Part shown: in pieces, positions 11,264 through 56,017 of the stretch
How positions within the stretch are numbered: position 1 is the stretch's first letter
How the letters are laid out: the number at the start of each line of letters is the position of its first letter
DNA from: Prochlorococcus marinus
GTDB lineage: Bacteria; Cyanobacteriota; Cyanobacteriia; PCC-6307; Cyanobiaceae
Length of the DNA: 64,000 nt
Direction: 5' to 3'
Assembly (NCBI RefSeq): GCF_001180265.1
Contig: NZ_CVSW01000006.1
Location: 1-64,000 of the forward strand
Notes under the pieces: model-generated
What the model saw: only the letters and a program-made list of their open reading frames with translations
Told to the model about the DNA's origin: nothing
Databases searched by the model: none
Translations under genes and position numbers: made by a program

Positions 11264-11788
11264 TTAAAAACTATATAAAAAACTCTTTAACTTTTTATTA
11301 GCCTCATTAGATAAACAAAGAGACAAGGTTAGCAAAGATTTAATGATAATTTCATCATTTTCAGTTTGATTTAAAAGCTTTTTCACTCTAATACTATTTA
11401 TATTGAATCTCTCATTAATTAGCTCTAAAAATCTCTTATGAAAATCGTTCCAAATGGCTGAATAGTTTTTAGGATCTTCTTTAGATTTAAGGATCTCTCT
11501 GATATAAGGATATAAATATTTAGACATTTCAACAGTAATTTTTACCAGTGCATCAAATTCCTCTAATTTTATATTGTTTTTAGTGAAAGATTTTCTTAAT
11601 GGATTATTGTTCCTAATTTTCCAAATAGTAATTTTATTTGGCAAAACATCATTTAAATTAAGTTTATTTGATAAAGCATAAAAAGATTCAATACCATTTA
11701 AATCTATGGTCTCAAGTATTAATAATAAAAAATCAAGCTTCTCTATAGATTGTCTTGATACCTGATTTCCTTTAGTTAAAACAGTAAT
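11264..11788 (-). CDS. DUF3038-like protein, probable ATT (AUU) start
   Basis: A conventional start would be TTG at 11644 (126 residues). However the frame stays open upstream to a TAA at 11798-11800, and that extension encodes a convincing helical segment (SIEKLDFLLLILETIDLNG, then IESFYALSNKLNLNDVL) resembling the DUF3038 N terminus. The extension contains no ATG, GTG or TTG. The best initiation candidate is ATT at 11786-11788, giving 174 residues. A TATAAT box at 11812-11817 would place transcription start close to this point. Alternatives are a sequence error or truncated translation from TTG. Function unknown; the gene is paired with the DUF4335-like gene. Confidence 0.55.
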   Translation of the reverse strand: MTVLTKGNQVSRQSIEKLDFLLLILETIDLNGIESFYALSNKLNLNDVLPNKITIWKIRNNNPLRKSFTKNNIKLEEFDALVKITVEMSKYLYPYIREILKSKEDPKNYSAIWNDFHKRFLELINERFNINSIRVKKLLNQTENDEIIIKSLLTLSLCLSNEANKKLKSFLYSF

Positions 11789-11811
11789 TGTTCTTGATTA
11801 AATATGATTTA

Positions 11812-45973: not shown

Positions 45974-46018
45974 GTTTATATTTTTATCTTTTAATCGCTA
46001 TATATCTATTATTTTTTA

Positions 46019-46321
46019 ATGAAAACAGTACAAATTGAGTTTTCGAAATATGAATTAGTTAACTTTTTATGGCCTGAATTAATAGAAGACTACGGATTTG
46101 ATAAAGCCAGAAAAATAGTTTCTCAAGCTATTGACTTACAAAAAATGAATGGGACAAAAAATAGCACTATGCCAATCATATTTTCAGGAACAGGAGGATT
46201 AGCTCTAATACCAATACAAATGCTAGAAAAAGAAAACTTTGAGATCAATTATAAAGATAATCAAGTTTTAATATTTAATCTAAAAAGAAAGTCATTTCAA
46301 ATCTTAAATGAAGCAAACTAA
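46019..46321 (+). CDS. Hypothetical soluble protein
   Basis: A 100-residue alpha/beta protein beginning MKTVQIEFSKYELVNFLWPE. It has a central IFSGTGGLALIPIQMLEKEN segment and a beta-rich end. No membrane segment or signal peptide. No family is recognised. It is 59 bases before the MBL-fold gene on the same strand. Confidence 0.58.
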   Translation: MKTVQIEFSKYELVNFLWPELIEDYGFDKARKIVSQAIDLQKMNGTKNSTMPIIFSGTGGLALIPIQMLEKENFEINYKDNQVLIFNLKRKSFQILNEAN

Positions 46322-46380
46322 TCTAAATTAGTAATTTCTCGATAAAGCCAAAAGTACCTTATAGTCTAATAAACAATTAT

Positions 46381-47103
46381 TTGATGATGACTTTTGAAGC
46401 GACCTACCTTGGTTCAAATGGTTGGCTTATAAAATTTAAAAAAACAAATTTAATTATTGATCCTTGGCTCAAAGGAGATTTAATATTTCCTCCAGGTGAG
46501 TGGTTTTTTAAAGGATCATTAGAAGAAGAAATTTCTATAGATAAAAATATAGATATTATTTTGTTAACCCAAGGATTACCTGACCACTGTCATGTTCCAA
46601 CATTAGAGATGTTCAGAATAGATATTCCTATAATTTGCCCTAAAAGTGCTGTTGAAAAATTAAAAAAAATTGGTTTTAGTTCAATTAAAGTGCTTAAGCC
46701 AACTGAAAAGACAAATCTTCTTAATTTAAGTTTTGAAGCAACTGCTGGGGCTCCAGTGCCACAAATAGAAAACGGATATATTGTTAAAGACGATCTAGAT
46801 AATGGGTTTTATATAGAACCCCATGGATATCTTGATGAAAATTTAAACAAGCAAAGTCTTGATGCAGTTATTACTCCTACAAAAAATTTAGAATTACCCT
46901 TAGTTGGTTCCTTTGTTAAAGGTGCTGATGTAGTCCCTAAATTGATTAACAAATTCAATCCAAAATATATACTTTCAAGCACCATAGGCGGAGATGCAAA
47001 ATATTCAGGTTTTTTAAATAATTTTATTTCAGTTCAGGATTATGAAGAGGAATTAGATTGTAATCTTGTAGATCTAAAGAGTATGCAATCTATTATGATT
47101 TAA
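46381..47103 (+). CDS. Metallo-beta-lactamase-fold hydrolase
   Basis: A 240-residue protein of the MBL fold: FEATYLGSNGWLIKFKKTNL and IIDPWL at the N terminus (the NG-W-LI beta start and D-P loop), and ILLTQGLPDHCHVPTLEMF (~58-76) in place of the classic HxHxDH metal motif. Only DH.H remains of the latter, so metal binding is probably altered. The C-terminal half keeps YIEPHGYL. It resembles the UlaG/RomA-like branch. Substrate unknown; ATG 46384 or 46387 could also be the true start. Confidence 0.75.
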   Translation: MMMTFEATYLGSNGWLIKFKKTNLIIDPWLKGDLIFPPGEWFFKGSLEEEISIDKNIDIILLTQGLPDHCHVPTLEMFRIDIPIICPKSAVEKLKKIGFSSIKVLKPTEKTNLLNLSFEATAGAPVPQIENGYIVKDDLDNGFYIEPHGYLDENLNKQSLDAVITPTKNLELPLVGSFVKGADVVPKLINKFNPKYILSSTIGGDAKYSGFLNNFISVQDYEEELDCNLVDLKSMQSIMI

Positions 47104-47157
47104 ATCGACCCTAAAAGATCTTTAATTAAGTCATTTAGCTTGAAAGTAAATCTTTTT

Positions 47158-47165
47158 AAAAGGAG
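47158..47165 (+). promoter_or_regulatory. Perfect Shine-Dalgarno (AAAAGGAG) before an ATT codon
   Basis: AAAAGGAG ends eight bases before ATT 47174-47176. Strong ribosome sites are rare in this window, and no ATG, GTG or TTG follows within working distance, so it decides the unusual start of the next gene. Confidence 0.65.
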
Positions 47166-47173
47166 CTCAAAAA

Positions 47174-47539
47174 ATTCATTCATTTTTTATTACCGCAATA
47201 CTTTTATTTGCTTTAAATAGTAGCTATATATGCGAAAATTCAAAGCTTGATCTTGTTATGAGAAATAATATTAATGGTGACTTTTCCATAGTAAAAAAGA
47301 TATCTGAGTTAAAGCCAGGAGCATTTATAAATATTAATTGGAATAAAAAAAAGCTTATGCTTCCATATTCTCTTAGAAATGATTATATTTCCTTTACAGA
47401 TAAAAAATGGGACTGGAGGTATCAACTTAATAAAGACGGATCGCCTGATATTAATAATCCTTCTTTATACGAACTAATACCTTCTGGGAAAATTAAAACA
47501 CATTTCTGTGAAACAGAAGATAATAAGCCAAACTTATAA
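47174..47539 (+). CDS. Secreted hypothetical protein, probable ATT (AUU) start
   Basis: A conventional start would be ATG 47258 (93 residues). The frame, however, is open upstream to TAA at 47147, and the added 28 codons from ATT 47174 encode a perfect signal peptide: M-HSFFITAILLFALNSSYIC, hydrophobic from ~3 to 14, with likely cleavage before the charged CENSKLDL. A perfect Shine-Dalgarno sits eight bases before the ATT. The mature protein (KKISELKPGAFININWNKKK, WDWRYQL) has Cys in the ENSK and THFCE regions. No family recognised. It precedes pepN by 49 bases. Confidence 0.6.
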   Translation: MHSFFITAILLFALNSSYICENSKLDLVMRNNINGDFSIVKKISELKPGAFININWNKKKLMLPYSLRNDYISFTDKKWDWRYQLNKDGSPDINNPSLYELIPSGKIKTHFCETEDNKPNL

Positions 47540-47588
47540 TTTGATAATAAGTATTCTAGATTTTTAACTTCTGAACTTCTTTGTAAAG

Positions 47589-50195
47589 ATGAACAATCCA
47601 AAAAGCCAAAATAATATTTCAAGATATATAAAACTTGAAGATTACAAAGTTTTTGATTATGAAATTCCAGAAATCTTTTTGAACTTCGTAATTAAGAAAA
47701 ATGCTGTAAATGTTACGACCAAACTAAAATTGGTTAAAAAAAATAAGAATACCAGAAATCTTATTCTTGATGGTACAGATATATTTATAAAAAAAATATT
47801 TATAGATGACTCACTACTGGGAAAGGAACACTATAAACAGCAAAAAAATAACTTAAAAATTGAAAATATAAACAAAGATAATTTTTTATTAAAAATAGAA
47901 GGAATAATTAAACCGAAGGAAAATACATCCCTTTTAGGAATGTATGAGAGCAATGGAATTATAACTACGCAATGTGAGGCGGAGGGATTTAGAAGGATAA
48001 GTTTTCACTCTGATAGGCCTGATATTCTAAGCAAATACACCGTGAGAATTGAGGCAGACAAGAATGATTACCCTGTCTTACTTTCAAATGGTAACGTCGT
48101 AGAAGAAAATAATCTTGCAAATAATCGACATGAAATAATTTGGGAAGACCCATATCCGAAACCCTCATATCTATTTGCATTGGTAGCAGGAAAACTCAAT
48201 TGTGTTAAAGACAATTTCATAACAAAATCGAATAAAAAAATAAAAATAAATATTTATGTTGAGTATGGCGATGAAAAATATGTTCAACATGCAATAAGTT
48301 CATTACAGAAATCTATGAAGTGGGACGAGGATAAATATAACCTTGAATACGATTTGTCATTGTTCAATATTGTTGCAGTCAGGCACTTTAATATGGGAGC
48401 AATGGAAAATAAAAGTCTCAATATTTTCAACTCAAAACTAATACTCGCTAATTCTGAAACGTCAACTGATGAAGAATTAGAAAGAATAGAGGGCGTGATC
48501 GCCCATGAATACTTCCATAATTGGACGGGGAATAGAGTGACTTGTAGGGATTGGTTTCAACTATCTCTAAAAGAGGGCTTAACAGTATTCAGAGATCAAC
48601 AATTCACTGCAGACGTTCATAATCGTGAAATCAAGAGACTTGATGATGCGAAATTTCTTAGGAGAAATCAATTTAGAGAGGATTCTGGTCCAACATCACA
48701 TCCTGTAATGCCAGATAGATACCAAGAAATAGACAATTTCTATACGACAACGATTTACGAGAAAGGAGCAGAAATAATTAGAATGCTTAATAAGCTTGTA
48801 AAAGATGAAAATTTCTATAGAGGATTTAGTAATTACATCTCAACATATGATGGAAAGGCAGCAACAATAGACCAATTTGTCGATAAAATTTTAGAGCACA
48901 ATAAGGAAATCGATCCTGAAAAGTTTAAAATCTGGTACAAGCAAAATGGGACCCCAAAAATTAAATTCAAGAGAATCTGGGATCAAAAAGGCGAAAAACT
49001 TACAATTGAAGCCTCACAAAGTAATCCAATAAAGAAGAACCCATATAATGATTTACCATTAATAATTCCTATAAATATGGCTATATTTTGCGGTGATAAT
49101 AAAATGGTAGAAAAAACAGTTGTTTTAAAAACAAAAAAACAAGAATTCATTTTTAGGAATGTAAGATCTAACATCCAAATTCCTTTAGTAACTTATTTTC
49201 GCGAATTCTCTTCACCTGTTGACTGGGAATCAGACACTACCTTGGATGAAAAATTTTTAATCTTAAATTATGAAAAAGATTTTTTTACACTCTCTAATAC
49301 TATAAAAGTATTTTATAAAAAAATTATTTTATGCAGATTAGATGAAAAACCAGATCATAAAATTGAAAATAAATTAATAAGCACTTTAATATCATTTATA
49401 AAAAATAAAAATATTCATTTATCCCTTTTAGCAGAATTACTAAGTATTCCGACATTTGCTGAAATTGAATCGGAGATAGAAAATATAGACCCTTTAAAGA
49501 TATATAAAACTATTGACGAATTAAATCATTTATTCGGTACCAAATTAAAAGAAGAATTATATTTTAAGCTCCAAGAAATAGAGAAAAATCTAGATAATGT
49601 TTGGCCAGAAGGTAAAAATGAAAGAAAACTAATCGAAACTATTTGGAAACTACTCTTAAGCAGTGATGATAGGGAAATTAAAGGGAAAATAATTAATTAT
49701 GTCGATAGTAATTCAATGACGCTAGCAAAAGCTGCAATGAATTCTTTCAGCAGAATTAATTGTCCTGAAAGAAAAATTATTTCAAATATATTCTTCAATA
49801 AATGGAAAAATAATAGTGTAGTTTTGGATAGTTGGTTCTCATTTAATGCATCTATAGAAATTGATGAAAAAACGAGCAGTATTGAAAAATTATTTGAAAA
49901 TAAGTTTTTTGATTCAAAATCACCAAACACTTTAAGAGCTATATTAAATACATTCGTAACAAGAAATAGTACTTTTCATGCGATTAATGGTTCTGGTTAT
50001 AAATATATTGCAAAAAAGATAATTGAATTTGATAAATTAAATCCAATAGTAATTTCCCGTTTTATAAAAGTATTTAGTAGATATAATTATTATTCAGAAC
50101 CTTACAAAAGTAATATGATAGAAACAATAAAACAGATTAAAAAAAATAAACTATCAAAAAATACTCAAGAAGTTTTAGATGCAATTATAGAGTGA
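47589..50195 (+). CDS. pepN: Aminopeptidase N (M1 family)
   Basis: An 868-residue zinc aminopeptidase of the E. coli PepN type. The exopeptidase motif GAMENKSLN (residues ~266-274) and zinc site HEYFHNWTGNR (~304-314), with the third ligand in SLKEGLTVFRDQ, are intact. The N-terminal saddle domain and a helical C-terminal domain (from ~540) complete the usual architecture. It recovers free amino acids from peptides in the cytoplasm. Length is normal. Confidence 0.95.
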   Translation: MNNPKSQNNISRYIKLEDYKVFDYEIPEIFLNFVIKKNAVNVTTKLKLVKKNKNTRNLILDGTDIFIKKIFIDDSLLGKEHYKQQKNNLKIENINKDNFLLKIEGIIKPKENTSLLGMYESNGIITTQCEAEGFRRISFHSDRPDILSKYTVRIEADKNDYPVLLSNGNVVEENNLANNRHEIIWEDPYPKPSYLFALVAGKLNCVKDNFITKSNKKIKINIYVEYGDEKYVQHAISSLQKSMKWDEDKYNLEYDLSLFNIVAVRHFNMGAMENKSLNIFNSKLILANSETSTDEELERIEGVIAHEYFHNWTGNRVTCRDWFQLSLKEGLTVFRDQQFTADVHNREIKRLDDAKFLRRNQFREDSGPTSHPVMPDRYQEIDNFYTTTIYEKGAEIIRMLNKLVKDENFYRGFSNYISTYDGKAATIDQFVDKILEHNKEIDPEKFKIWYKQNGTPKIKFKRIWDQKGEKLTIEASQSNPIKKNPYNDLPLIIPINMAIFCGDNKMVEKTVVLKTKKQEFIFRNVRSNIQIPLVTYFREFSSPVDWESDTTLDEKFLILNYEKDFFTLSNTIKVFYKKIILCRLDEKPDHKIENKLISTLISFIKNKNIHLSLLAELLSIPTFAEIESEIENIDPLKIYKTIDELNHLFGTKLKEELYFKLQEIEKNLDNVWPEGKNERKLIETIWKLLLSSDDREIKGKIINYVDSNSMTLAKAAMNSFSRINCPERKIISNIFFNKWKNNSVVLDSWFSFNASIEIDEKTSSIEKLFENKFFDSKSPNTLRAILNTFVTRNSTFHAINGSGYKYIAKKIIEFDKLNPIVISRFIKVFSRYNYYSEPYKSNMIETIKQIKKNKLSKNTQEVLDAIIE

Positions 50196-50209
50196 TTTCT
50201 TGATGATAT

Positions 50210-50431
50210 TTAACTAAATTTAATAATAACGATTGTAAATATTAATAATAAAATAAATACAATATACTTATTAATAAAAATATAATCAAATACATTTTTA
50301 TTATTATCTTTGTTCCACTTTTTATCCACGTATTCCTTAGTTATAAATTTATTAGGTCTACCACAATATAAACATGTTGGAGAAGTTTTTAAAATTAAAT
50401 TTTTACATTGGGGGCACTTTTTTTTTTCCAT
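50210..50431 (-). CDS. Zinc-ribbon membrane-anchored small protein
   Basis: A 73-residue protein with an N-terminal zinc ribbon (CPQCKNLI...PTCLYCGRP, two CxxC pairs, residues ~6-24), a charged linker and a C-terminal helix (~54-72, YIVFILLLIFTIVIIKFS). The layout is that of a tail-anchored zinc-ribbon protein; function unknown. It converges on pepN with 14 bases between stops. Confidence 0.7.
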   Translation of the reverse strand: MEKKKCPQCKNLILKTSPTCLYCGRPNKFITKEYVDKKWNKDNNKNVFDYIFINKYIVFILLLIFTIVIIKFS

Positions 50432-50595
50432 AATTTAATCTTACTGAATAAAATTGAAATCAGAAACAATAAATAAAATAAGTAATTTAAATTTTATTTA
50501 TTATATTTTATTAATTAAATATCATTGCAAAAAAAAATTTGTTTCTAACTATTTAAAAAAATTCAATATAATAAAAAATTAGTATTTGGTTTGAA

Positions 50596-50757
50596 ATGTT
50601 TGCTATTGCACTTGGAATGTCCCCTGTCGAAAAAATCACTGTTGCAATATCTGCTTCAATTTTTATAATTGCCTTCACATGGGTCTCGATCAAGGGAGAT
50701 TTAAGAAAACTTGCTAATGAACTAATTGAAGATAATGAAAATAATCAAGATAATTAA
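50596..50757 (+). CDS. Small single-helix membrane protein
   Basis: Found by direct translation: 53 residues, ATG 50596, beginning MFAIALGMSPVEKITVAISA. One helix (~13-32, ITVAISASIFIIAFTWVSIK) is followed by an acidic tail (NELIEDNENNQDN). It has the look of a conserved cyanobacterial mini-protein, but I cannot name it. Convergent with the gene at 50772. Confidence 0.6.
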   Translation: MFAIALGMSPVEKITVAISASIFIIAFTWVSIKGDLRKLANELIEDNENNQDN

Positions 50758-50771
50758 AAAAATCTTTTAAC

Positions 50772-50972
50772 CTACTTTTCATGCAAACTGGGATAATCAA
50801 TAATATGCCTGATTTCTTTAAGAGAAGAGCCATAGATTTTTTCGCCATTTAAGTGAACCCCCATCCATTTTTCCTTTTGATTAAAAAAATAATTTTTAGT
50901 AGTATCCCTCTCGAGATAATCTTTATTATCCCAATTTAAAGTTATATCCCAACCTTTATAATTTTCTATCAT
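50772..50972 (-). CDS. Hypothetical small soluble protein
   Basis: A 66-residue hydrophilic protein rich in Trp and Lys: MIENYKGWDITLNWDNKDYL, then KEKWMGVHLNGEKIYGSSLK. Four Trp residues in 66 are unusual for this AT-rich genome and suggest a conserved fold. No family recognised. Confidence 0.58.
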   Translation of the reverse strand: MIENYKGWDITLNWDNKDYLERDTTKNYFFNQKEKWMGVHLNGEKIYGSSLKEIRHIIDYPSLHEK

Positions 50973-51065
50973 TTAGAAAAATAGAACATACTCAAATAAT
51001 ACTCAGAGAGACACTTAACAAAAACAAAGGAAATAAGTATTTTTTTCGTTATTTTTACTTAATAT

Positions 51066-52241
51066 TTATGTAGTACTGACTTTTATTTTAAGAGCAGCTT
51101 CATCTGCATTTTTTCTAGCCAATTTAATGTCAGAATTTGATGAGAGAACAACACCCATTCTTCTGCCTTTTCTGGAAACTGGTTTGCCAAATATGAGCAC
51201 TTTGGTCTTTTCAAATTCTAATGCTTTATTAAGACCCTCATAAATAGGATTAGGATACTCTTGGTTAGAGAGTATAACTCTGGTTGCAGACGGCTCTATT
51301 AGATCTATACGCGGTATTGGTAAATTTAAAAAAGCCCTTAAATGTAATTCAAATTCATTAATATTTTGACTAACTAATGTAACCATACCAGTGTCGTGTG
51401 GTCTTGGAGCTAATTCTGAAAATATAACCTCACTTCCTTTTATAAAAAATTCTACTCCGTATAATCCAGCTCCATTAAGGTTATTTAATATTCTACTTGT
51501 CATTCTCTTTGCTTCAATAATTAAGGACTCCTTGATCTCTAAAGGTTGCCAACTACATTGATAGTCTCCATTAGATTGAAGATGTCCAATTGGTAAACAA
51601 AAAATATTTTCACCACTTTCTTTTCTTACAGTTAAAAGAGTGAACTCAAGATCAAAATTAATAAATTCTTCAATAATTACACCTTTAACCTTTCCTCTTG
51701 AATTTGCTTGTGCCTGTTTCCATGCATTTTGTAAATCATTTTTTGTTTCAACCAAACTCTGTCCTTTTCCTGAAGAGCTCATTAAAGGCTTAAGTAAAAG
51801 TGGGAATCCAATTTCATCTGCTTTTTTTTCTAAATCATCAAATTCAAAAATATAATCAAACTTTGCAGTTTTAATTTTTAAATCTTTAGAAGCTAAGTCT
51901 CTAATTTTATCTCTATTCATTGTAATTTCTACAGTTCTAGCGTTGGGAACAATATTGAATCCTTCATCCTCGAGTTCTTTTAGGGCTTCAATTGAAAGTG
52001 CCTCTATTTCTGGGACAACATAATCAGGCTTAAATTCTTTTATAACATTTTTTAAAATATTTTTATCTCCCATATCAATTACTCTTGAATAATCAGCAAC
52101 TTGCATTGCAGGAGCTTTCTCATATCGATCAATTGCAATAACTTCTAATCCTAATCTTTTAGATTCTATTACTAATTCTTTTCCAAGCTCGCCACTACCA
52201 AGTAATAAAATTCTCTTTTTAGAAAAAATTGTTTCTTTCAT
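51066..52241 (-). CDS. purT: Formate-dependent phosphoribosylglycinamide formyltransferase
   Basis: PurT makes N-formyl-GAR from formate and ATP in purine synthesis. The 391-residue ATP-grasp protein shows ILLLGSGELGKELVIESKRL at the N terminus, MQVADYSRVIDMGD, PLMSSSGKGQSLVE (~151-164, the glycine-rich ATP loop) and APRPHDTGMVTL (~283-294), the classic PurT signature. Length is normal. A small membrane protein gene lies 11 bases upstream on the same strand. Confidence 0.96.
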   Translation of the reverse strand: MKETIFSKKRILLLGSGELGKELVIESKRLGLEVIAIDRYEKAPAMQVADYSRVIDMGDKNILKNVIKEFKPDYVVPEIEALSIEALKELEDEGFNIVPNARTVEITMNRDKIRDLASKDLKIKTAKFDYIFEFDDLEKKADEIGFPLLLKPLMSSSGKGQSLVETKNDLQNAWKQAQANSRGKVKGVIIEEFINFDLEFTLLTVRKESGENIFCLPIGHLQSNGDYQCSWQPLEIKESLIIEAKRMTSRILNNLNGAGLYGVEFFIKGSEVIFSELAPRPHDTGMVTLVSQNINEFELHLRAFLNLPIPRIDLIEPSATRVILSNQEYPNPIYEGLNKALEFEKTKVLIFGKPVSRKGRRMGVVLSSNSDIKLARKNADEAALKIKVSTT

Positions 52242-52252
52242 ATATATAATAC

Positions 52253-52492
52253 TTATTCCTCATCAACAGAAGGTTGTGAAGATGTATCATCTATTTTTTT
52301 ATCTTTCGAATAACTAAATAAAAAATTTCTACCAAACCAATTTTGACTTCGCATGCTATTAGTTATTGATCTTGAAATTGCTCCTAAAAAAAAGATTCCA
52401 ATCATTACCCAAATAATTCTTTCTAAAGCAATTGCAGGTGAAAAACCTTGACCGGAATATATAATTTCAGTAAGTGGGTCTAAAGGGTCCAA
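52253..52492 (-). CDS. Hypothetical single-helix membrane protein
   Basis: A 79-residue protein with a short N terminus (MDPLDPLTEIIYSGQGFSPA), one helix (~24-44, RIIWVMIGIFFLGAISRSI), a basic segment and a Ser/Asp-rich tail. It lies upstream of purT with 11 bases between, so the two are probably co-transcribed. No family recognised. Confidence 0.58.
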   Translation of the reverse strand: MDPLDPLTEIIYSGQGFSPAIALERIIWVMIGIFFLGAISRSITNSMRSQNWFGRNFLFSYSKDKKIDDTSSQPSVDEE

Positions 52493-52637
52493 ATTTAAAC
52501 TGATTAATAATATTAATTATAAATGGTTTAATAGATGAAAAATTAAAACTTAAAAAAGAAATAAACAAAACCTCTATATAAATTAAACACAATAAAGTCT
52601 ATACAATGCTATCTTCAAAGGGTGATTTTTTTTAGAC

Positions 52638-53117
52638 ATGCAAGTTGACGTACAAAATACTACTGTTCTTTCCGCAGACGGATCATCCATAAAACTAGGT
52701 GAATATTCAGGGGAAGTAATTTTAGTTGTTAATGTAGCTAGTTATTGCGGAAATACTGCTCAGTATGAGGATCTTCAAAAGCTACATGATTTATATTCAA
52801 GCAAAGGGCTAAGAATACTTGCATTCCCTTGTAATGATTTTGGAAAACAAGAACCCGACTCTCTTTCAGAAATAAAAGATTTTTGTACAACAAAATATGG
52901 AGTTAAGTTCGAAATCTATGAAAAAGTTCATGCCAAAGGCAACACCACAGAACCATACACAACCCTTAACAAAGTTGAACCTGAAGGAGATGTTGAATGG
53001 AATTTCGAGAAGTTTCTGATAGGGAAAGATAGTAAAGTAATTGCAAGATTCAAGCCAGGTGTTAAACCGTTTGATGAAAACCTAATCGCAGCTATAGAAG
53101 TAGCTTTAGATTCATAA
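52638..53117 (+). CDS. Glutathione peroxidase (cysteine type)
   Basis: A 159-residue GPx-fold peroxidase. The catalytic segment is VVNVASYCGNTAQYEDLQKL (~30-49) with Cys instead of selenocysteine, followed by LAFPCNDFGKQEPDS (the resolving-Cys/Gln block) and the Trp block VEWNFEKFLIGKD. The usual 'KCG.T' has become YCGNT. It probably reduces lipid or organic peroxides, with thioredoxin more likely than glutathione as donor in such non-seleno enzymes. Intergenic regions on both sides indicate a separate transcript. Confidence 0.92.
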   Translation: MQVDVQNTTVLSADGSSIKLGEYSGEVILVVNVASYCGNTAQYEDLQKLHDLYSSKGLRILAFPCNDFGKQEPDSLSEIKDFCTTKYGVKFEIYEKVHAKGNTTEPYTTLNKVEPEGDVEWNFEKFLIGKDSKVIARFKPGVKPFDENLIAAIEVALDS

Positions 53118-53248
53118 AAAACTTCTTGTAGTTCAAATAAAAATTTTAAAAATAAAGACTTTTTATATTTAATTAAAAAATAAGCAAATTACCTTAATTT
53201 TTTTTTTGGGATTTAAGGTTGTCTAGGATTTTTTATTTATTTTAAATT

Positions 53249-53659
53249 TTATTTATTATCAGAATCAACTTCTACGTCTATTATTTCATCTTTAACAGTT
53301 CTTTTTTTAGGTTTAATTGGTTTTATCTCTGACTCTATTGTTTCTTCTTTAACTTCACTTTCTTCTAGTTCCTCTGGTTTTACTTCTAGCTCTATTGTTT
53401 CTTCTTTAACTTCACTTTCTTCTAGTTCCTCTGGTTTTACTTCTAGCTCTATTGTTTCTTCTTTAACTTCACTTTCTTCTGGTTCCTCTGGTTTTACTTT
53501 TGAATTTGCTGAGCTTTGATCTTCATCTTTACTTAAGAGGAACTTTAATAGTTTTTTGAATAATAAGAAACCTTTTTCAACTCTTTTTGGACCTAAAATT
53601 GAAAGCAAAATTACTAAAATTATGAATAATTCAGGTGAATTTAAACCTAATAGTTTCAT
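53249..53659 (-). CDS. TatA/B-like membrane protein with three 19-residue acidic repeats
   Basis: A 136-residue protein. Residues 1-40 resemble a TatA/TatB N terminus: a short helix (ELFIILVILLSIL), the GPK hinge (GPKRVEKG) and an amphipathic basic segment. Residues 55-111 are three near-identical 19-residue units (VKPEELEESEVKEETIELE), followed by a mixed tail. The repeat makes the protein unusually acidic. True TatA/B lacks such repeats, so this could be a Tat component or an unrelated membrane-anchored acidic protein. One gene, monocistronic. Confidence 0.6.
   Translation of the reverse strand: MKLLGLNSPELFIILVILLSILGPKRVEKGFLLFKKLLKFLLSKDEDQSSANSKVKPEEPEESEVKEETIELEVKPEELEESEVKEETIELEVKPEELEESEVKEETIESEIKPIKPKKRTVKDEIIDVEVDSDNK
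53327..53497. repeat. Three tandem 57-bp repeats inside the TatA-like gene
   Basis: Three head-to-tail 57-bp copies, nearly identical at DNA level (a few substitutions in the first and last copies), all in frame. Copy number can therefore change without frameshift. Confidence 0.9.
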
Positions 53660-53706
53660 AAAATTTTATATTCTAGTTATATTTTAGTACATGCTAAAAA
53701 TTTAAT

Positions 53707-54099
53707 CTAATTATTCTCAAAAGTTGGTAGATAGAGTTCCCTATTTGATGCAATTAAACCTTCTTCTTTAAAAAAAATCTCTAGGTCTTTTAGATCTTTT
53801 TTATCTACAAATTCACCACAATTATCTAATATATTATTATGGGTGAAGTTCCATAAATCAGCCAAATATTCGTCATCATCTGGAAATGCTACAAATTTCA
53901 AATATGTATTATTCAAAGCATATTCACTAGCAAAATCAGAATCTAAACCTTCCCTCTTAGCATCACAAAAAACTTTAGCAAATCTTTTACCTACAGAAGT
54001 TTGAGCACTTGATAAATCTAAATTACCTTGCAAAGCATTTACATTTATTGGTGCAATAAAAATAATTATTGGAAGAAAAATAGATATTAATATAAACAA
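53707..54099 (-). CDS. Secreted protein with two conserved cysteines (paralogue of the gene at 34.7 kb)
   Basis: A 130-residue protein from a TTG start (54097-54099) preceded by AAGGAAA. Signal peptide ~1-22 (IFLPIIIFIAPINVNA). The mature part has KRFAKVFCDAKREGLDSDFA (~38-57) and ILDNCGEFVDKKDLKDLEIF (~90-109), matching the FxKxYC...G..D.A...NCG pattern of the protein at 34739-35140. Probably exported; function unknown. Confidence 0.65.
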   Translation of the reverse strand: MFILISIFLPIIIFIAPINVNALQGNLDLSSAQTSVGKRFAKVFCDAKREGLDSDFASEYALNNTYLKFVAFPDDDEYLADLWNFTHNNILDNCGEFVDKKDLKDLEIFFKEEGLIASNRELYLPTFENN

Positions 54100-54269
54100 G
54101 AAAAAATTTCCTTTTTAAATTTCAACTCAACATAAACTAGCAAAAAAAGTAATCAATTAGGCCTATTTAAGTAAAAGCACTTATTATAAATTAAGAAATA
54201 AATAAAAAACATAAAATCAGCTCCATATCTCAATTTATAATAAACAAAGATTAAATAAATTTAAATTAT

Positions 54270-55268
54270 ATGTCTTCAAATATAAGGCTTAAAGGAAGGG
54301 GAGTTAACAGGATAATTACGAGTAAGGTAATGCTATCGCCATTAGCAGGAGTTACAGATAACATTTTTAGACGACTGGTACGTAAATGGGCTCCAAACTC
54401 TTTACTTTTTACAGAAATGATAAATGCCACAAGTCTTAAAAAAGGATATGGCACACAAAAAATCAATCAAATAGATTTAGAAGAAGGTCCAATTGGAGTA
54501 CAAATATTTGATAATAGGCCATATGCAGTTTCTGAAGCTGCGAAACAAGCTGAGGACTCTGGAGCTTTCTTAATTGATATAAATATGGGATGTCCAGTAA
54601 AAAAAATTGCAAAGAAAGGTGGAGGCAGTGCTTTAATTAAAGACCGAAAACTTGCTATAGAATTAGTCAAAAATGTTGTAAAAGCTGTTAGGGTTCCAGT
54701 AACAGTAAAAACACGACTCGGATGGGATAGTAAAGAAGAAAATATAGAGGATTTCTTATTTAAACTTCAAGATGCGGGAGCAACGATGATCACACTTCAT
54801 GGAAGAACTAGAAAACAGGGTTTTTCAGGCAAGTCAGATTGGGAAATGATCGGGAGACTTAAAAAGTTGTTGGAAATTCCAGTAATTGCTAATGGAGATA
54901 TCAAAAATCCAGATGATGCTCTTAATTGTTTAAAAAAAACAAATGCTGATGGTGTAATGATTGGACGAGGAATTTTAGGATCCCCATGGAAAATAGGAGA
55001 AATAGATTATGCCCTTAGAGAAAATAAGAATTTTAAAGAACCAAAAACAGAAGAAAAACTATATTTAATTATTGAGCATCTTGATGAATTAATAAAAGAA
55101 AAAGGAGATCACGGATTGCTAATTGCAAGGAAACATATCTCATGGACATGCAAAGACTTTAAAGGAGCATCAAATTTGAGAAATAACTTGGTTAGAGCTG
55201 TTGATAAAAATGAAGTTAAAAATTTAATAATTAAAATGATTAAAACTTTGAATAATGAAAAAAAATAG
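54270..55268 (+). CDS. tRNA-dihydrouridine synthase
   Basis: A 332-residue FMN-dependent enzyme that reduces uridines in tRNA D-loops. Visible family blocks are VMLSPLAGVTDNIFRRLVRK at the start of the barrel, LIDINMGCPVKKIAKKGGGS with the catalytic Cys (~111), VTVKTRLGWDS, ITLHGRTRKQGFSG and VIANGDIKN...GVMIGRGILGSPW. The helical C-terminal domain follows from ~250. Which subtype (A, B or C) cannot be told by eye. A DUF2470 gene follows 28 bases later. Confidence 0.93.
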   Translation: MSSNIRLKGRGVNRIITSKVMLSPLAGVTDNIFRRLVRKWAPNSLLFTEMINATSLKKGYGTQKINQIDLEEGPIGVQIFDNRPYAVSEAAKQAEDSGAFLIDINMGCPVKKIAKKGGGSALIKDRKLAIELVKNVVKAVRVPVTVKTRLGWDSKEENIEDFLFKLQDAGATMITLHGRTRKQGFSGKSDWEMIGRLKKLLEIPVIANGDIKNPDDALNCLKKTNADGVMIGRGILGSPWKIGEIDYALRENKNFKEPKTEEKLYLIIEHLDELIKEKGDHGLLIARKHISWTCKDFKGASNLRNNLVRAVDKNEVKNLIIKMIKTLNNEKK

Positions 55269-55296
55269 TTTAGCTTAAAACAAATTTATTTTTTAA

Positions 55297-55554
55297 ATGA
55301 AAATTATTAGTAAAGAAACAAGTAAAAGAGTTTGTGATCATATGAACAATGATCACATAGATTCAGTGCACAAATATCTTATTCATTATGGGAAGATATC
55401 AAGCTTTGAGAATGCTTATATGGAAGAAATTAATAATAGTTATATAAAAATCAATTACGATGGCCAATCAGCAATTATCAATTTTAAAAATGAAATATCT
55501 GAAGAAGAAATTCATTCAACTTTAGTATCAATGATTAAAGACATTAAAAAATAA
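55297..55554 (+). CDS. DUF2470 domain protein
   Basis: An 85-residue soluble protein matching DUF2470, the C-terminal domain of pyridoxamine-oxidase-like heme-degradation proteins: VCDHMNNDHIDSVHKYLIHY near the N terminus (H and D/H pattern) and YIKINYDGQSAIINFKNEIS. Here the domain stands alone. Such free domains in cyanobacteria have no proven function. It follows the dus gene on the same strand. Confidence 0.78.
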   Translation: MKIISKETSKRVCDHMNNDHIDSVHKYLIHYGKISSFENAYMEEINNSYIKINYDGQSAIINFKNEISEEEIHSTLVSMIKDIKK

Positions 55555-55573
55555 ATTAATTTATAAAATAATT

Positions 55574-55738
55574 CTAATTTTTATTTTCATAGTAATCAGT
55601 TATCTTTTTACATTCTTCAAATGAAAGCATGCTTAATCTAGATGTGGCTTTTATTTTTAGAATTGCACAAACAGCTAATAAATCTGCGCTATCAACATTA
55701 AGTGCTTCAGAAAGTTCTAAGACCCTAAGACCTTTCAT
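55574..55738 (-). CDS. 54-residue IF2_N-like protein
   Basis: Found by direct translation from ATG 55738. The product LRVLELSEALNVDSADLLAV followed by LKIKATSRLSMLSFEECKKI closely resembles the IF2 N-terminal repeat ('RV.ELAKEL...SKELL..L...G...KS..S.L...'), an alpha-beta-alpha module normally found at the start of translation initiation factor 2. It is complete by itself and not attached to a GTPase. It may bind the ribosome, RNA or another factor; this is inference. Confidence 0.62.
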   Translation of the reverse strand: MKGLRVLELSEALNVDSADLLAVCAILKIKATSRLSMLSFEECKKITDYYENKN

Positions 55739-55780
55739 TAGTATTAAAAAATCTTTTCTACATTATCAAGAACCTTGAAA

Positions 55781-56017
55781 TCAATGGGCTGCATTTTTCC
55801 CTAAACCTGCAACGAATGGAAAAGTTTGTTCATCACCAAATATATCTTCTACCGAAGAATTAGAAATATTAGTTTTTTTATTATCAGGCTTAATTTCTTC
55901 AATTTCATTAGAAATATTATCTTTAATGTTATTTTCAATTTCTTTTGCTAATAAATTGTTTGTATTAGAAAATATTGAAAAAACTAATACACATAAAAAC
56001 AAAATAATTCTTTTCAT
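55781..56017 (-). CDS. Secreted hypothetical protein
   Basis: A 78-residue protein with a signal peptide (~1-24, FLCVLVFSIFSNTNNLLA), an acidic Asn/Glu/Ile-rich middle and the C terminus DEQTFPFVAGLGKNAAH. The FPFVAGLGKN end looks conserved. No family recognised. Probably lumenal or periplasmic. Confidence 0.62.
   Translation of the reverse strand: MKRIILFLCVLVFSIFSNTNNLLAKEIENNIKDNISNEIEEIKPDNKKTNISNSSVEDIFGDEQTFPFVAGLGKNAAH

Follow-up and report, generated by a model that had tools for sequence, protein, structure and literature searches.

To our knowledge, translation from non-standard start codons in bacteria has few worked cases, namely infC, pcnB and sigR. The prediction of start sites relies heavily on ATG, GTG and TTG, and non-standard starts are described as repressed by IF3 in E. 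coli and Streptomyces (excerpts of PMC5472188). The examples given there are ATT in E. coli infC, ATC in Streptomyces infC and GTC in Streptomyces sigR, the IF3 effect on the GTC start of sigR having been shown by experiment (excerpts of PMC5472188). In E. coli pcnB the AUU start limits expression, and the AUU starts of lepA from Borrelia burgdorferi and Bacillus licheniformis were deduced from sequence as single cases (excerpts of PMC1780047).

The gene described here resembles each of these systems in part. Like E. coli infC, it keeps an AUU start served by standard machinery, and its AUU would in principle be open to IF3 proofreading; unlike infC, it does not encode IF3, so that no feedback loop is possible. 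With pcnB, whose AUU keeps expression low, it shares a place outside translation, but the present case was made by sequence comparison, yet it is genus-wide and comes with further genes. The gene sigR, which likewise has no role in translation, also carries a non-standard start that is conserved, but the codon there is GTC instead of AUU. As for lepA, the AUU is deduced from the failure of any standard start to give the full protein, here from 133 sequences instead of single cases.

Prochlorococcus are the ocean's most abundant photosynthetic cells. The window, i.e. the whole stretch of DNA analysed (64,000 nucleotides from Prochlorococcus marinus), carries the gene between a metallo-beta-lactamase-fold (MBL-fold) gene and pepN, all three on the same strand:

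46381 to 47103, forward strand: upstream gene for a metallo-beta-lactamase-fold protein (Lactamase_B_3), ending 70 nt 5' of the ATT
47158 to 47165, forward strand: Shine-Dalgarno (SD) sequence AAAAGGAG, ending 8 nt 5' of the start codon
47174 to 47176, forward strand: predicted AUU start codon (ATT in 129 of 133 sequences, ATC 1, GTT 2, broken frame 1, ATG 0)
47174 to 47539, forward strand: predicted coding sequence, 121 aa plus stop, for a small beta protein with two cysteines, probably exported, that belongs to no named family
47174 to 47233, forward strand: codons 1-20, putative hydrophobic export segment up to the invariant Cys20 (homologues have AxA-type signal peptides, by eye)
47258 to 47260, forward strand: first standard start, ATG at codon 29, probably not the start (ATG in only 99 of 132 sequences)
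47507 to 47509, forward strand: second invariant cysteine, Cys112
47589 to 50195, forward strand: downstream gene pepN, aminopeptidase N

As the first-pass annotation had claimed, the frame of the open reading frame (ORF) at 47258-47539 stays open in the 5' direction to a TAA at 47147-47149, the codons at 47150-47257 contain no ATG, GTG or TTG, and AAAAGGAG is followed, after eight bases, by the ATT. The combination of ATT and SD had been offered as the argument for an AUU start. In a single genome, it is not rare by itself: AAGGAG precedes 17 of the 6,249 ATT triplets in the window by 5-10 nt (both strands, all frames), and it is conservation that lifts it above chance. The case for the AUU start therefore rests on conservation and not on one genome.

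Orthologues were searched in panels of 99 and 399 genomes. They were present in most of the genus (45 of 61 genus genomes in one search), and weaker orthologues were found in other genera of the family. We read 172 loci at the DNA level, 92 genus loci from the panels and 80 from a named collection (nearly all of the relatives in it being Prochlorococcus, either single cells or strains, for example MIT 9314, 9401 and 9201), and the removal of exact duplicates left 133 distinct sequences. The start codon was ATT in 129, ATC in one (L010) and GTT in two, with a broken frame in one more; ATG, GTG or TTG stood at this codon in none of the 133. The genuine AUU start proposed earlier was borne out by this comparison, and a sequencing error at the ATT is excluded by the 129 distinct sequences that carry it. 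The two sequences with GTT (L058 and L064) belong to related genomes and each have a TTG two codons downstream, an apparent return to a standard start. In the broken frame (L067, genome G161), SD and ATT are present, and a one-base difference beside a nine-T run splits the ATT from the gene frame, which could be an error, a pseudogene or slippage.

In 117 of the 133 sequences, AAGGAG precedes the start codon by 6-9 nt; a shorter SD-like match was found in 14, and two (L065 and L066) had none; the SD is weak in the group of G015, the genus genome used for several analyses below. The distance from SD to codon differs by single bases, and the upstream frame is not kept. Furthermore, six codons or fewer separate the in-frame stop from the start codon in 36 of 133 sequences, and in five of these AAA alone stands between stop and ATT, leaving only AAA and ATT as possible starts. 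In 4/133, a standard codon occurs somewhere after the upstream stop and before the ATT. The single-base shifts of the spacing, together with the close upstream in-frame stops, thus indicate that coding begins at the ATT.

Downstream of the ATT, the third position changes fastest in codons 2-27, as expected for coding sequence (132 in-frame sequences). In the same sequences, codon 1 required 2 parsimony changes versus a mean of 19.5 per codon over codons 2-27, and changes as few were found at only 6 of 121 codons, codon 1 included. Codon 1 thus stands out as conserved against the variable codons around it. The lack of ATG by itself is not significant within a subtree of 91 sequences, because neutral evolution would predict only about 1.1 changes from T to G at the third base. 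Total change at the third base in this subtree was 1 observed versus about 5.5 expected, and at most one third-base change was also seen in 7 of 29 conserved Ile codons.

The proposal also withstood the refuting condition set in the first-pass annotation: orthologues with ATG were found, but only in other genera, where the ATG lies in almost the same place before a similar hydrophobic N-terminus: it stands two codons upstream of the AUU position in 19 of 20 loci, and the 20th has TTG. Alignment among Prochlorococcus genomes, the check suggested by the first-pass annotation, returned an ATT conserved within the genus and an N-terminal segment that behaves as coding sequence. The other genera still carry the upstream AUG, which suggests that AUG is ancestral and AUU derived; most likely, the AUU start would have replaced an AUG two codons upstream on the line to this genus. 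The locus combines an in-frame AUU, a properly spaced SD and a full-length protein that no standard start gives. As judged from the sequences, the conserved ATT and SD, the nearby upstream stops, the coding conservation downstream and the ATG of other genera strongly support a genuine AUU start.

Strong ribosome sites had been described as rare in this DNA, and this holds. Taking the first ATG as a proxy for the true start, AAGGAG or AGGAG precedes it in 0 of 31 long ORFs of the window and in 9 of 891 long ORFs in stretches of G015. Prochlorococcus marinus has been classed as 'SD-Scarce' (excerpt of PMC10783764). A strong conserved SD before a weak codon is notable because strong SDs are rare in this SD-poor genus. 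The translation machinery looks standard: GGATCACCTCCT, the usual 16S 3' end with the anti-SD tail, was found once in the genome, the initiator tRNA in G015 has three G-C pairs in its anticodon stem (GGG/CCC), and IF3 is present in the genus. The C-terminal arginines of G015 IF3 presumably match those of E. coli IF3. A promoter and terminator scan at the locus gave nothing above chance.

Read from the ATT, the protein has 121 residues, with a hydrophobic stretch and then Cys20. The signal peptide had been called textbook; the hydrophobic segment stands, but 'textbook' was generous, as the first 20 residues, (M)HSFFITAILLFALNSSYIC, contain no Lys or Arg. Wider homologues (L311, L314 and L319) have clear signal peptides by eye, with AxA shortly before the same cysteine. 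About 100 residues follow the N-terminus, and Cys20 and Cys112 are invariant. The structure model (pLDDT 73, pTM 0.62) is a small beta fold with eight strands, and a helix at residues 5-14 was modelled with low confidence. The window protein matched no Pfam or NCBIfam family at E 0.001, and scanning the alignments against the families turned up nothing beyond stray hits (one or two members, best E 0.002). With the alignment as the query, 19 of 20 chosen genomes matched, 18 from other genera of the family and one (G070) from another family. No relative was found in the viral contigs searched, the PDB profile search returned nothing below E 0.28, and Foldseek gave no match at E 0.001.

The periplasmic lysozyme inhibitors MliC/PliC (PF09864) are likewise small exported beta proteins with an N- and a C-terminal cysteine, the two framing a small beta fold as the invariant C20 and C112 do in the model here, but they differ in that the spacing between the cysteines is longer in our case and the fold matches at a Z of about 4. 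Fold comparison returned 3oe3 (Z 4.0), 7dsg/7dpy (Z 3.9) and 5my7 (Z 3.6), with unrelated structures scoring about as high (top Z 4.8), and hhalign against MliC gave 56% over 49 columns. PF09864 matched 0 of 35 (E up to 0.5) and 0 of 20 (E up to 1) alignment members with HMMER's filters on, and the 26 genomes with a PF09864 match include none of this genus. We regard this resemblance in fold and profile as weak, a lead only.

Within the genus, the gene and pepN are present together or absent together throughout the 399-genome panel, two contig edges (G025 and G351) being the exceptions; all 10 near-complete genus genomes that were tested lack both. We drew no functional link to pepN from this pattern; the MBL-fold gene is missing from the same 10 genomes, so the region is absent or unassembled as a whole. 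Outside the genus, the gene is not next to pepN in G147, and G100, G106 and G143 have the gene but no pepN match. Many fragmented assemblies have a contig end about 5.7 kb past the gene on the pepN side (near 53300 in the window); together with the joint absence, this points to either a shared assembly break or a deletable segment. No tRNA was found at 46000-56000 of the window.

The first-pass annotation had drawn a parallel to infC and suggested autoregulation through IF3. This parallel fails: infC of the genus starts with ATG in all 13 loci with a start region (L123-L136), directly after a TGA in each, and two more loci are cut off. IF3 is encoded elsewhere. Since the AUU gene does not encode IF3, an autoregulatory loop is absent, and IF3 could at most repress the gene one way. 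IF3 control of the AUU gene is plausible.

Stretches of G015 were also scanned for other ORFs with a coding part well upstream of any standard codon. Of the 80 ORFs that it gave, 60 were inspected; most of these looked like shadows or stretch edges, and besides the gene itself nine could be assigned to conserved genes. Profile matches bear out the assignment for recF, a STAS anti-sigma antagonist, CP12, ScpA, 2-phosphosulfolactate phosphatase (ComB), 3-methyladenine glycosylase (Mpg) and a SpoU-type methylase. An S26 protease was closest to the nickel-SOD maturation protease (60.2 bits at a cut-off of 63.25, with a fragment as the query), and CrtR was recognised by eye, its fragment giving a weak desaturase match (E 0.003) that falls short of the cut-off. 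We then examined orthologues from another seven genomes of the genus, six of which gave nine matches apiece and one (G000) six, and from three sister-genus genomes. We treat the cases as individual finds and claim no genome-wide rate.

The STAS anti-anti-sigma factor has ATA in all ten (7/7 genus, 3/3 sisters), with GGAGG 8-9 nt upstream in 7/7 genus and 1/3 sister copies; two sisters also have a TTG six codons downstream. For comB, ATT was found in 6/7 genus genomes, the seventh having TTT and a TTG two codons upstream; all three sisters have ATG at exactly the same codon, where the NCBIfam model NF002053 begins. The S26 (sodX-like) protease has ATT in 8/8 genus genomes. Of the sisters, one carries an ATG 12 codons further upstream. 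The remaining two lack both ATG and GTG up to the active-site region (one of them with a TTG nine codons on), and each has an ATT close to the aligned codon but not at it. In crtR, ATT occurs in 7/8 and ATC in 1/8, and 3/3 sisters have ATG one or two codons upstream. In scpA, ATA occurs in 6/8 genus genomes, the other two having GTA there and ATT or TTG nearby; all three sisters have TTG at that codon (by ungapped extension), and a TTG 11-15 codons past the AUA is a possible start. The genes mpg and SpoU methylase likely start at AUA/AUC, the exact start being ambiguous from the sequences. The best further cases in the genus are thus recF, the anti-anti-sigma factor, comB, crtR and the sodX-like protease, with scpA, mpg and SpoU less certain.

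CP12 was dropped from the set, as all seven other genus genomes have ATG there; only the G015 copy (L152) has AAG in place of the ATG, with a CTG two codons upstream. In the frame of a DUF3038 gene (PF11237) at 11267-11797 of the window, reverse strand, none of the first 51 codons is a standard start. The gene shares ATT ACT with G015, where a TTG lies two codons upstream; a further AUU start is possible.

Broader scans were less informative. A naive search of the window and the G015 stretches for an ATT preceded by an SD showed no enrichment of ATT over other codons (26 candidates with 1 passing, against 37 with 3 for AAA and 20 with 4 for TCT), and it missed the gene's own G015 copy with its weak SD. 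A conserved-frame scan gave 278 candidates and was rejected, being swamped by antisense shadow frames. After filtering for overlap, 416 conserved frames yielded 37 candidates, among them crtR and scpA, judged real by eye, and a 743-aa ORF with 15 conserved codons before its GTG; this filter lost mpg. Among the matches listed in open-licence PMC, none dealt with AUU or AUA starts in Prochlorococcus or with a recF starting at AUU.

The start of recF, a DNA-repair gene, was followed furthest across the family. In 35 Cyanobiaceae genomes it was ATT in 23, ATC in nine and ATG in three, including ATT in 8/8 genus genomes (the eighth being G427) and 3/3 sister-genus genomes; a further family genome (G276) had no recF match. 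Four genomes of other families have ATG (one) or GTG (three) in the aligned position. Of the 32 AUU/AUC copies, 27 are free of standard codons from the upstream stop to the start and five are not. The GC content of the recF locus spans 29 to 71%, so AT bias does not explain the AUU/AUC starts. As predicted from sequence, recF and the anti-anti-sigma factor would keep their non-standard start in other genera of the family.

With considerable confidence, we propose the following reading as a whole. The gene would be translated from the AUU at 47174, placed by the strong SD, to give a product of 121 residues that is probably exported via its hydrophobic N-terminus. The AUU would be a weak start proofread by IF3, as established for E. 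coli infC; most likely it holds output low, and output may depend on free IF3, with the strong SD presumably offsetting the weak codon in part. The gene would then be one of a small Cyanobiaceae set whose AUU/AUC/AUA starts have been kept in evolution.

An alternative that we consider quite possible, if short of probable, accepts the AUU as real and takes it as a weak start that is merely tolerated in a gene for a low-dose protein, with no sensing of IF3. It would fit the neutral expectation of about one ATG event in the close subtree and the lack of AUU in infC of this genus, and recF, scpA, comB, mpg and others appear to be low-dose genes. Mere tolerance is hard to reconcile with recF, where AUU/AUC was kept in 32 of 35 genomes over that range of GC content and ATG is found in three. 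Conversely, one may extend the proposed reading to an IF3-gated Cyanobiaceae set, in which AUU/AUC/AUA starts would make output track initiation stringency, that is IF3 per ribosome and hence growth or stress, infC with its ATG staying outside. The set would hold recF, the anti-sigma-factor antagonist, comB, crtR, the sodX-like protease and the exported protein, and probably scpA, mpg and the SpoU-type methylase; we put this extension forward only tentatively.

Translational coupling or reinitiation from the upstream gene could relax the choice of start codon, and the MBL-fold gene does lie on the same strand. We find this improbable: its end, 70 nt before the ATT, is far for coupling, a strong SD is at hand, and the anti-anti-sigma gene has its own GGAGG before the AUA in all seven genus copies read and in one of three sister copies. 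Finally, a standard start, either GTG/ATG at codons 28-29 or one upstream after a frameshift, can hardly be right. In its favour, most loci have a standard codon at 28-29 (of 92 loci, 79, the broken frame included, have their next standard codon no earlier than codon 28, and the other 13 at codons 3-19), and a short ORF from the TTG at 47140 overlaps the site in a different frame. Against it, codons 2-27 show the substitution pattern of coding sequence, and initiation at 28-29 would cost the protein its putative export segment together with C20 and L25, which do not vary among the 35 members aligned. In 10 of the 92 loci the first standard codon is codon 62, where a start would also drop the equally invariant R30, N31, G35, G49, F51 and W56. 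The TTG frame stops before the SD in orthologues with ttgaaagtaaatctactttaa.

The proposed AUU start, conserved across the genus, leads on to several conserved AUU/AUC/AUA starts, that of recF being kept across genera. If these starts are real, the annotations of this group probably contain errors or gaps at N-termini or for entire genes. Moreover, selection for weak starts as a dosage or IF3-sensing device would become testable.
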